Shown: positions 6,225-64,000 of the stretch, piece by piece
How positions within the stretch are numbered: the first letter of the stretch is position 1
Layout: each line of letters starts with the position of its first letter
Source: Rummeliibacillus pycnus
GTDB taxonomy: Bacteria > Bacillota > Bacilli > Bacillales_A > Planococcaceae
Direction: 5' to 3'
Assembly: GCF_002884495.1 (NCBI RefSeq)
Contig: NZ_KZ614145.1
Span: forward strand, 3,672,423 to 3,736,422
Length of the DNA stretch: 64,000 bases
The notes under the pieces: model-generated
What the model was told of the DNA's origin: nothing
The model's database searches: none
What the model saw: only the letters and a program-made list of their open reading frames with translations
Program-made: the position numbers and the translations under genes

Positions 6225-6461
6225 GATTTTCATTGCGTGTGGCGCTTCCTGCGGGGTCTCATCTAGTCCGTTTTCCCACAGGACATTGAATGAACTTCAC
6301 TGAATGAACATCGCACGAAGAAAATGCGAATGCATTTTCGAGGACTCTACGCTAATTCCACTTCAACTAAGATGGTTACACAAGATCTTTATCATAAAAA
6401 TCAAGCTATTTTTACTTTTTCAGTGCATTTAAAAACCCAAAATGGATTTATGAATTTGATT
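6225..6461 (+). repeat. Intergenic dispersed repeat (second copy at 35523-35755)
   Basis: The 460 bases between yhgE and the dioxygenase gene hold no gene. The part from 6289 holds a perfect 8-bp hairpin (GAAAATGC-GAAT-GCATTTTC) inside a block 'aacttcact.aa.ga.catcgcac.aag' to 'gaggactct.cgct.attccac'. The reverse complement of 35588-35661 matches this block. Further on, TTTTTCAGT (6416-6424) and an AATGGATTTATGAA block (from 6441) recur at similar distances in the other copy. The GC-richer left part (6225-6285) looks like a different, decayed Bacillaceae-type intergenic repeat. Confidence 0.75.
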
Positions 6462-22590: not shown

Positions 22591-22669
22591 ATTGCCTTCA
22601 AAATGTGTTACCCTGGGTAAGGAAACCTTATTTGGCTTTTGCTAGTTAAATATAAAGGAGATAGAGCGT

Positions 22670-22819
22670 GGAGCTAAACGAGCGTGTTTCGCTTTTAATT
22701 TATCTAGTTGCACACGCTAGCTCCTCGGGGTTAAATAACCTCACCACGGTGAGGCAAAGAGCGCCTCTTCGTGTTGAGAACATTTACCTGTCGGAGCTAA
22801 ACGAGCGTGTTCCACTTTT
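22670..22819 (-). repeat. 124-bp hairpin repeat, one full unit plus partial (copy inverted to the right-edge array)
   Basis: One unit of about 123 bp (22670-22792) and the first 27 bases of a second lie between cccB and hprK. The reverse complement aligns along its whole length with the units at 63720-63967. Conserved parts are the ACACGC...GCGTGT outer arms, the AGCTCC...GGAGCT inner arms and a GAGGC...GCCTC hairpin. The gap of 335 bases between cccB and hprK holds nothing else but the cccB terminator and the hprK promoter region. Confidence 0.85.
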
Positions 22820-35522: not shown

Positions 35523-35755
35523 ACTGAAAAATTATAAAAATGAAGATTTACACTAAAAATTTGGTATAGCTATCTTTGTTGATGTGGAATGAGCGAAGAG
35601 TCCTCGAAAATGCATTCGCATTTTCTTGGTGCGATGCTCGTTGAGTGAAGTTAATTCCACATCATGCAGCAAGCAGTTTAATACTATAAATATTTGTATG
35701 TAAACAATTTTTCAGTACTTTAAACTTAACCAATAATGGATTTATGAAATTGATT
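35523..35755. repeat. Nested inverted-repeat intergenic element
   Basis: ACTGAAAAA (35523-35531) and TTTTTCAGT (35708-35716) form outer arms. GATGTGGAAT (35581-35590) and ATTCCACATC (35654-35663) form perfect middle arms, and a perfect 8-bp GAAAATGC/GCATTTTC hairpin is the core. The three sets share almost one centre (about 35620). The core is repeated, inverted, near 6290-6361. The rest of the 627-base trxB-nudix gap (35387-35522) shows nothing I can name. Confidence 0.7.
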
Positions 35756-39659: not shown

Positions 39660-39696
39660 GGTTATTTATAAGAGACAACAGGAAATGAAAACTTGA

Positions 39697-39945
39697 ACGT
39701 GGATATAATTTGTAATTCCGCAGAAAGTAGGACGAAAACCGCGGAAAGCCGGTCAAAAACCGCGGATATAACCAGAGAAACCGCGGAAAACCGAACAAAA
39801 ACCGTGGATACAACAGAAATCGCGGAAAGCCAGTCAAAAATCGCGGATATAACCAGAGAAACCGCGGAAAGCCGGTCAAAAACCGCGGATATAATCAGAG
39901 AAATCGCGGAAAGACCATCAAAACCCGCGAATAACCCCAGAATCC
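39697..39945. repeat. Minisatellite: twelve 21-bp units of two alternating types
   Basis: Twelve units start with CCGCGGA or a close variant. Type A (CCGCGGAAAGCCGGTCAAAA) and type B (CCGCGGATATAACCAGAGAA) mostly alternate, giving a 42-bp higher period; one unit is 18 bp. All length changes are multiples of three, so an open frame runs through (39693-39956, Ala-Glu-Ser-Arg-type heptads). That frame begins with TTG and lacks a clear ribosome site, so I do not call a gene. The array fills the gap between the crh and clpP terminators. Confidence 0.93.
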
Positions 39946-42355: not shown

Positions 42356-44257
42356 TTGTTTAAGAAATCTGCTGATGTTAAATTTCAACAGTATACATTT
42401 GATGGGCACACAATTCACCTTATTACGTGTGAGGCAATGATAGATTTACAGTTATTAAATGAAGTTATTGTCCCACGTGTTGGTTTCTTATGTAGTAATT
42501 TGACGGATGAGCCCCTTGAAACACAAGTGGAATCACAATTATATGTTCCAGATTTAAAAAAAGTAAAAGATGAACAAGAAGCAATTTTACTAGTCTATAC
42601 AGGTTTTGTTCTTCTCTATTTTGAAGAAGGAGAGCTTCTTTTTTCTAGCAATATTGCTAAAAAACCTAATCGTAATCCTGAAGAGACAAATGTAGAAGTT
42701 ACGATAAAAGGACCAAGGGATAATTTTATTGAAGATGTGGCTGTAAATATCGCAATCATAAGAAAACGGTTACCAACGAATTCACTGTGTGTGGAAAAAT
42801 TTGAATTAGGAACACGATCAAAGACAAAGGTAGCCATTCTATACTTTGACGATATCGCAAATAAAGATCTATTAAATGAGTTAAAAAAGCAGTTAGAGAA
42901 AGTGAATACAGACGCAGTATTTAGTGGTGATATATTAATGGAGCGAGTCGATAAGAGTGCTCCTCTCTTTCCTAGACATGATTATACTGGGAGACCCGAT
43001 TATGTTGTCCAATGTCTAGTGAGGGGGAGATTTGTACTGTTTGTAGATGGTGCTTCATACGCAATGATTACACCAGTGAATCTATTCTTATTATTAAAGA
43101 CGAGTGAGGATGATGAATATCCAGTTCTGTATGGTTCAGTAGAACGGGCAATGCGAATAGTCGGATTGCTAATTGGAGCACTTCTACCGGCATTTTGGCT
43201 TTGCTTAACAACATTTCATCAAAATCAATTGCCGTTCCAACTTTTAGCAACGGTTGTTCAAGCAAGTACAGGCCTCCCTTTCCCGACAGCCATTGAGATG
43301 CTTATTATGTTAGCAATGTTTGAGTTATTCCGTGAAGCAGGATTACGTCTTCCTGTTGTCTTAGGTGGTACGATTGGTGTTGTAGGAGGATTAATTATCG
43401 GAGATGCGGCTATTCGAGCAGGTATTACAAGTCCAGCAATGGTTGTAATTATTGCTACTTCTACCATTGCATCATTTACGTTAGTAAACCAGAACCTTGC
43501 AACGGCAATTAGTTTAATGCGCGTTTTTTTTATTTTACTTTCGGCATTTTTAGGGCTCTTTGGCTTTTTTTTGTCGTATTTCTTCACGCTTGTTTATTTA
43601 TCCAACATCCGAATATTTGGATATCCTTATATGAATATTGCAACAGATTTAAGTTGGTCAACCATAGCTAAAGCTATATTTCGATTACCAGCAAAGAAAT
43701 ATACGAAGCGGCCAGAAGCTTTAAAAACTATAGATAATACAAGAACCCAAGTTCAAACTGAAAACCAAGGACAAACAGAGAGTCAAAATCAAGGGGCTCA
43801 AAATCAAACAGAGAGCCAAAATCAAGCGACCCAAACACACACAAACACCCAAAATCAAGGAACTCAAACACAAACAAATATTCAAAATCAAGGAACTCAA
43901 GGACAAACAGATAGTCAAAAGCAAGGGACTCAAGGACAAACAGAGAGTCAAAATCAAGGGGCTCAAACTCAAACAAATACCCAAAATCAAGGGGCTCAAA
44001 ATCAAACAGAGAGTCAAAATCAAGGGACTCAAGGACAAACAGATAGTCAAAATCAAGGGACTCAAACACAAACAGAGAATCAAAATCAAGAGACTCAAGG
44101 GCAACCGGATAGTCAAAATCAAGGAACCCAAAATCAAACGAATACTCAAAATCAAGCACAAACAGAGAGTCAAAATCAAGGAAATCAAAATAAAATAAAT
44201 ATCCAAAATCAAGGAACTCAAGATCAAAACAAAACTAAAGAGGAAGAAAATGAATAA
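42356..44257 (+). CDS. Spore germination protein, GerAA family (A subunit), with Gln-rich repeat tail
   Basis: The 633-residue protein has an N-terminal cytoplasmic domain, the GerA core with about five membrane helices ('RPDYVVQCLVRGRFVLFVDGAS', 'PFPTAIEMLIMLAMFELFREAGLRLP', 'GGTIGVVGGLIIGDAA'), and then, from about residue 462, a tail of 11-residue repeats of the type 'QNQGTQTQTNT'. The start is doubtful: TTG 42356 has no ribosome site. The frame is open upstream and reads 'INLNTLQQ' from ATA 42332, where an ATG overlapping the gerAB stop would be expected. The last 8 bases overlap gerAC. Confidence 0.85.
   Translation: MFKKSADVKFQQYTFDGHTIHLITCEAMIDLQLLNEVIVPRVGFLCSNLTDEPLETQVESQLYVPDLKKVKDEQEAILLVYTGFVLLYFEEGELLFSSNIAKKPNRNPEETNVEVTIKGPRDNFIEDVAVNIAIIRKRLPTNSLCVEKFELGTRSKTKVAILYFDDIANKDLLNELKKQLEKVNTDAVFSGDILMERVDKSAPLFPRHDYTGRPDYVVQCLVRGRFVLFVDGASYAMITPVNLFLLLKTSEDDEYPVLYGSVERAMRIVGLLIGALLPAFWLCLTTFHQNQLPFQLLATVVQASTGLPFPTAIEMLIMLAMFELFREAGLRLPVVLGGTIGVVGGLIIGDAAIRAGITSPAMVVIIATSTIASFTLVNQNLATAISLMRVFFILLSAFLGLFGFFLSYFFTLVYLSNIRIFGYPYMNIATDLSWSTIAKAIFRLPAKKYTKRPEALKTIDNTRTQVQTENQGQTESQNQGAQNQTESQNQATQTHTNTQNQGTQTQTNIQNQGTQGQTDSQKQGTQGQTESQNQGAQTQTNTQNQGAQNQTESQNQGTQGQTDSQNQGTQTQTENQNQETQGQPDSQNQGTQNQTNTQNQAQTESQNQGNQNKINIQNQGTQDQNKTKEEENE
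43745..44240 (+). repeat. 33-bp tandem repeats inside the gerAA gene
   Basis: About fourteen copies of a 33-bp unit encode 'QNQG(T/A)Q(T/G/N)QT(E/D/N)(S/T)' blocks; one unit is shortened. The product tail is almost only Gln, Asn, Thr, Ser and Gly. The repeats keep frame throughout, so they behave as coding DNA. Confidence 0.93.
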
Positions 44258-63666: not shown

Positions 63667-63694
63667 CGCCTGGCCGCTAATGGTTAGGCGTTTT
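63667..63694 (+). terminator. Terminator after secG
   Basis: CGCCTGGCC (63667-63675) pairs with GGTTAGGCG (63682-63690) with one mismatch, followed by TTTTC. Confidence 0.8.
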
Positions 63695-63719
63695 CTATTT
63701 TATAGCTTATAATTAATAT

Positions 63720-64000
63720 AAAAGCGGAACACGCCCGTCAAGCCCCGACAAGCAAATGTTCTTCACGCGAAGAGGCGCAATATGCCTCAAAGCGTGGAGG
63801 TTATTTGACCTCGAGGGGCTGGCGTGTGGAGCTGGATAGAAATAAAAGCGGAACACGCCCGTCAAGCCCCGACAAGCAAATGTTCTTCACGCGAAGAGGC
63901 GCAATATGCCTCAAAGCGTGGAGGTTATTTGACCTCGAGGGGCTGGCGTGTGGAGCTGGATAGAAATAAAAGCGGAACACGCTCGTTCAGCTAGATCTGA
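63720..64000 (+). repeat. Tandem array of a 124-bp hairpin repeat (two full units and a partial third)
   Basis: Unit 1 (63720-63843) and unit 2 (63844-63967) read as identical. A third begins at 63968 and diverges after about 20 bases before the window ends. Within a unit ACACGCC pairs with GGCGTGT, AGCCCC with GGGGCT, GAGGC with GCCTC, and GAGGT with ACCTC, so one strand can fold into a branched hairpin. No open frame is convincing. The 347-base end of the window holds only this array and the secG terminator. Confidence 0.93.

Follow-up and report, generated by a model that had tools for sequence, protein, structure and literature searches.

In the Bacillus cereus group, bcr1 and further MITE-like repeats are structured, mobile intergenic repeats of about 150 nt (PMC3446304, PMC2267715), and in E. 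coli REPs that lie within 15 nt of a stop codon stall ribosomes (PMC12306157). Here we describe what is apparently a large, mobile and undescribed family of repeats of Bacilli, with a unit of about 124 bases, as it is represented in a 64,000-nucleotide stretch of the Rummeliibacillus pycnus genome (the window, used here for the whole stretch of DNA analysed). At the right edge of the window two 124-bp units without a single sequence difference stand in tandem, head to tail, followed by the start of a third, and another full unit lies on the reverse strand. The features are given below, together with scores from a covariance model (R1) that we built from 31 diverse units; S1 and S2 are the stems that a sequence-only reading of this DNA had called outer and inner.

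about 22664-22700, minus strand: half unit, 5' arms only, behind the full reverse-strand unit (from the sequence)
22701-22818, minus strand: full unit, S1 ACACGCT/AGCGTGT, S2 AGCTCC/GGAGCT (R1 101.6 bits and sequence)
63667-63690, plus strand: secG intrinsic terminator, upstream of the right-edge array (positions 290-313 of locus L008)
63718-63841, plus strand: right-edge array unit 1, identical to unit 2 (model match 63721-63838; R1 108.3 bits)
63730-63736, plus strand: S1 5' arm of unit 1, ACACGCC (sequence and S1 covariation)
63742-63747, plus strand: S2 5' arm of unit 1, AGCCCC (sequence and S2 covariation)
63816-63821, plus strand: S2 3' arm of unit 1, GGGGCT (sequence and S2 covariation)
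63822-63828, plus strand: S1 3' arm of unit 1, GGCGTGT (sequence and S1 covariation)
63842-63965, plus strand: right-edge array unit 2, identical to unit 1 (model match 63845-63962; R1 108.3 bits)
63966-64000, plus strand: third unit, divergent and partial (start only), with 5' arms ACACGCT, CGTTC and AGCT; the window edge cuts the rest

The outer and inner arms of the right-edge units are present just as the sequence-only reading gave them, and both of the paired C-to-T and G-to-A changes that it saw between these units and the reverse-strand unit are real. Two paired changes alone are thin evidence; the observation is far stronger in a test with 31 diverse units. The outermost element of the fold is a short stem, S0, of 2-3 bp. 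A purine-rich internal loop (GGA/GGA or GA/GA) separates it from S1, whose 7 bp vary greatly in sequence, and a bulge of 5 nt (CGTTC-like) lies between S1 and the 6-bp stem S2. Further in come a conserved internal loop (GACAAGC opposite GACCTCGA), S3 and a variable upper stem. In a MAFFT alignment of the 31 units (A1), double compensatory changes were found in 18 of 20 stem pairs, and 146 cells had changed on both sides as compared with a mean of 42.9 in shuffled alignments, none of 500 of which reached 146. Paired cells made up 95.3% of A1 (71.1% when shuffled), the covariation score was 0.634 (0.189 when shuffled), and the signal collapsed, leaving nothing comparable, once pairing partners were slid by 1-3 columns, the second part of our null. 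The choice of units took no account of pairing in S2 and S3, but for most of the units in A1 pairing in S1 had been one of the criteria. S1 was therefore tested again on matches recruited through a start motif and the sequence of their 3' side, irrespective of pairing; here 45 of the 52 free positions paired, against a mean of 30.6 and a maximum of 42 in shuffles. The check that had been proposed, aligning many copies and testing for covariation, thus finds both named stems covarying massively, which supports the suggestion that a folded form is selected or mechanistically needed.

Whether that form was an RNA or a cruciform had been left as an alternative. Among 137 distinct units, G-U pairs outnumbered A-C pairs on the sense strand by 86 to 21 across S1 to S4 (the upper stem accounts for 60 against 9, and S1-S3 for 26 against 12), a comparison to be read with the fact that alignments made with a model, as are A2 and A3, which were fitted to R1, lean somewhat towards G-U. 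Because G-U exceeds A-C on this strand, and a two-strand cruciform predicts symmetry, we conclude that one strand, the sense strand, folds, as RNA or single-stranded DNA; the single folded strand is retained, and the symmetric cruciform is disfavored. The window unit folded better than its dinucleotide shuffles on the plus strand (-57.6 versus -36.1 kcal/mol, z -6.1, 0 of 200 as good) and, more weakly, on the minus strand (z -4.6).

Three observations show that the unit is mobile: empty sites are clean and lack target duplication, identical copies are dispersed, and arrays have gained units. On the 3' side of groEL, one genome (G154) has a unit where another that is 95% identical there (G222) is empty (ATGATGTAA^GGAAAAC), and at the 3' end of the 23S rRNA gene an insert of exactly 120 bp splits GACTTGACCT^CAATACAAAG; there is no clear target duplication at either pair, both of which concern tail-less units. 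At the secG locus, the congener G001 carries a different unit, and G002 and the more distant G059 carry none. G154 moreover contains more than 10 near-identical dispersed copies of a 190-bp element that consists of GAACA, the unit and a tail ending TTATCCACA...TTTTATAATTTCCTAAG, the tail end nearly always abutting an A-run and a terminator-like stem. A genome of another family (G323) likewise contains many elements built in this way, and in these two lineages the unit sits inside elements of about 190 bp with a common tail. In G154 an insert of about 60 nt is shared by the hairpin apices of two tailed copies at different loci (L209, L210), which indicates that hairpins with larger apices are mobile as well. 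A second tail type, TTTATACTTTCTTATC, follows single units at L349 (first copy), L353, L360 and L133, and resembles the IS91-like tail TTTATAATTTCCTAAG.

Both ends of the tailed element of G154 are the ends of a 1.6-kb insertion sequence in the same genome, the protein of which matches Y2_Tnp (E 3.8e-36) and Zn_Tnp_IS91 (E 1.4e-20). This insertion sequence is without a unit; what it has in common with the element is confined to the two ends, about 24 nt of one and about 45 nt of the second. Judged from these matches, an HUH Y2 rolling-circle enzyme is the best candidate mobilizer of the tailed form. The GAAC/NWAG flank of the units resembles IS91 targets, the rule for which we take to be GTTC, CTTG; a literature search on IS91 ends found nothing. 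The IS91-type transposase (PF04986) was detected in 4 of 61 genomes of the family, in which units are nearly ubiquitous, and was not found in the R. pycnus genome (G000), and a tail-like motif follows 5 of 122 arrays. This distribution does not support IS91 as a universal mobilizer, and since most host genomes are without the enzyme, a general role in mobilization is something that we infer. Because the window copies have no tail, and no GAAC/NWAG flank (their flank is AATATA), we do not file them as IS91 elements.

The reading we prefer, to which we give about an even chance, is that the unit is a small, non-autonomous, REP-like mobile element the folded strand of which is the substrate of an HUH-type, IS91-like rolling-circle transposase. 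The transposase would recognize the hairpin by its shape, next to the cleavage end (the AAAGC end), and would join the cleaved end to a short target motif, for instance GAAC or NWAG. Since a TAA stop followed by G gives TAAG, and the 5' edge of each unit is itself target-like, insertions would be expected to collect behind genes and in front of existing units. Copies that do not fold would fail to spread, giving rise to covariation, and the copies in R. pycnus, where the IS91 transposase was not found, would be either relics or moved by another enzyme.

Arrays often begin at a stop codon, a tRNA end, the 23S end or a terminator. In a set of 121 arrays, the stop codon of the upstream reading frame falls at -66 to +2 nt relative to the unit start in 59 cases. 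Of these 59 stops, 54 are concentrated in an 11-nt interval, -8 to +2 (p about 2e-37 under a uniform distribution). The element itself contributes to this excess, since its opening bases (TAAGA, TTAAATG) can provide a stop; the groEL stop is native. Another 15 frames continue into the element. Each of the four tRNAs found immediately upstream has its end no more than 1 nt from the element start, and three copies lie at the 23S end. The base preceding AAAGC is nearly always A, and in 55 of 122 cases that A is preceded by an NWAG tetranucleotide (AAAG, TAAG, CAAG, ATAG, TTAG or CTAG). This placement close behind stops, in the sense orientation of the upstream gene, would also be expected, as would the G-U excess on the sense strand, if the unit were an RNA element of 3' UTRs, with a hairpin behind the stop affecting ribosome release, mRNA stability or 3' processing, host selection as the driving force and spread as secondary; the ribosome stalling by E. 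coli REPs cited above provides a precedent. However, the same gene end in close relatives can be with or without a unit, or carry one of different sequence, units are found behind tRNAs, the 23S rRNA gene and terminators, and antisense to neighboring genes, and G-U pairs amount to about 1% in S1 to S3, which is unusually few for an RNA. We therefore regard an RNA function of this kind as possible, though rather unlikely.

Units within an array share one orientation. Among species that are about 92-96% identical, G141 has one unit, whereas both G220 and G183 carry, between the identical flank and that distal unit, one additional and different unit. The comparison of L326 with L250 and L095 shows gain of a unit beside an unchanged gene-proximal flank, and the direction is the same in L324/L329 and L331/L255. 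There is no 5' gain in two of the compared pairs, one of which (L322/L265) looks like a tandem duplication and the other of which (L327/L252) differs distally; about five events underlie the gene-proximal polarity of growth. Of 120 arrays, 72 have the start of another unit behind their last full one, as against 4 in the control.

The third, degenerate unit of the right-edge array has embedded in it a match to Bacillaceae-1 RNA (RF01690) that starts at 63995 and runs past the window edge (L008 618-684), and such nesting recurs in Viridibacillus. Bacillaceae-1 RNA has been listed since 2010 and, to our knowledge, has no known function. Compared with the array loci, about 14 of 17 matches in G008 lie in or adjoin arrays on the same strand, and in R. 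pycnus, where there are 28 matches genome-wide, a match lies within 300 bp of 3 of 7 arrays (p about 4e-7). Over the unit itself the RF01690 gathering cut-off is not reached, the matches lying beside or inside units. On this evidence, units may be frequent landing sites of Bacillaceae-1 RNA, which would then be a second mobile element. We also entertain, as a doubtful proposal, that the gene-end arrays are of a new kind, in which single-stranded, shape-recognized units would be added singly on the gene-proximal side by another enzyme, with Bacillaceae-1 RNA as a second resident element.

Other repeats lie nearby. At several loci of G363 (L365, L366, L367) units form part of a larger, composite repeat in which a Bacillaceae-1-like hairpin lies upstream and GATCGGGCGTTTACTTTAA marks the border. 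A different interspersed palindromic repeat, with the core GCGGGGTCTCGTCTAGTCCGTTTTCCCACAGGA, is found in the window (6240-6398 and 35547-35666) and adjoining the arrays (L008 around 755-880, and L010). The window also contains a short intergenic tandem array, possibly structured, with a 21-bp period around AAACCGCGGAAAGCC (39694-39936), and 33-bp tandem repeats (43739-44222) in a long open reading frame (42356-44257) that amount to an 11-residue protein repeat.

Less probable still is that the unit is a REP-like element moved by a RAYT or an IS200/IS605-type (Y1) transposase acting on folded single-stranded DNA. The unit resembles REP/BIME in its size class, in its palindromic fold, in lying at gene ends and in forming tandem arrays, and Y1_Tnp is present in 38 of 61 genomes of the family, but a search for PF01797 (Y1_Tnp) in two unit-carrying genomes, G008 (rich in similar copies) and G001, found none, and the mobile tailed copies bear IS91-like ends instead. 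We reject a requirement for RAYT/IS200 on the first of these grounds.

In the closest pairs of units (1-4 bases apart), all 11 differences in S1 and S2 are one-sided and none is two-sided; between near-identical units, changes are rarer per position in S1/S2 than in the loops, and double stem changes appear only with increasing distance. The one-sided and rarer stem changes in near-identical units argue that the stems are under purifying selection and that double changes accumulate over time. Template switching in the palindrome, which would copy one arm onto the other without any function, would account for double changes that are nearly all Watson-Crick with few G-U intermediates, but near-identical copies show the opposite of such correction and the excess of G-U over A-C is not expected from it, and we reject this very improbable explanation.

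Searches with R1, the E-values of which are rough, detected 11 copies in seven arrays in the R. pycnus genome, units in 162 genomes of a sample of 200 from the order, all 162 in the family of the window, and matches at E 1e-8 in 31 of 250 genomes from across the class, spread over nine families of Bacilli. Hosts named by an exact pattern scan include Viridibacillus, Rummeliibacillus, Rossellomorea, Metabacillus, Mesobacillus and Jeotgalibacillus. Phage and viral-contig collections contained no unit and plasmids one match, and we reject carriage by phages or plasmids. No family of Rfam 15 matches over the unit, which rejects a known Rfam RNA as its identity and bears out the remark in the sequence-only reading that no described family was known to it; our literature searches, subscription papers excepted, found no earlier description of the repeat.

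If the unit is indeed a mobile element with a folded strand as the transposase substrate, then a repeat family that abounds between the genes of Bacilli depends on its fold for mobility, its position behind stops is explained, and Bacillaceae-1 RNA gains a genomic setting. Insertions would then be recorded naturally in the polarized arrays, and recognition by shape alone could be tested directly on the S1 stem.

By analogy only, the unit recalls integron attC sites, which are likewise folded single strands of fixed shape and variable sequence, and its arrays, like those of integrons and CRISPR, grow at one end, although we saw no common leader or attI, and no cassettes or spacers. Bacillaceae-1 RNA is also structured and multi-copy, and is found in the same genomes, on the same strand and often inside the arrays, but it differs from the unit in sequence and fold. 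The bcr1-like repeats, compared by description only, are of a similar size class, intergenic, structured and mobile. With non-autonomous derivatives of the IS91 family the unit has in common the two insertion sequence ends shared by the tailed copies of G154, the lack of target duplication and the GAAC/NWAG flank; unlike these derivatives, most units are without a tail and most host genomes without the transposase. REP/BIME elements measure 20-40 nt, as compared with about 124 nt, two covarying stems and a fixed bulge for the unit, for which the Y1_Tnp search gave no RAYT link. As regards the GTAG or CGTC tag that adjoins a short palindrome in REP/RAYT systems, CGTC/CGTT is present in the unit in the S1-S2 bulge, and not in an outer position. 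Like the unit, however, the REP/BIME elements are palindromic, intergenic and in tandem, many lie close behind stop codons, and they are presumed to be substrates as single-stranded DNA.
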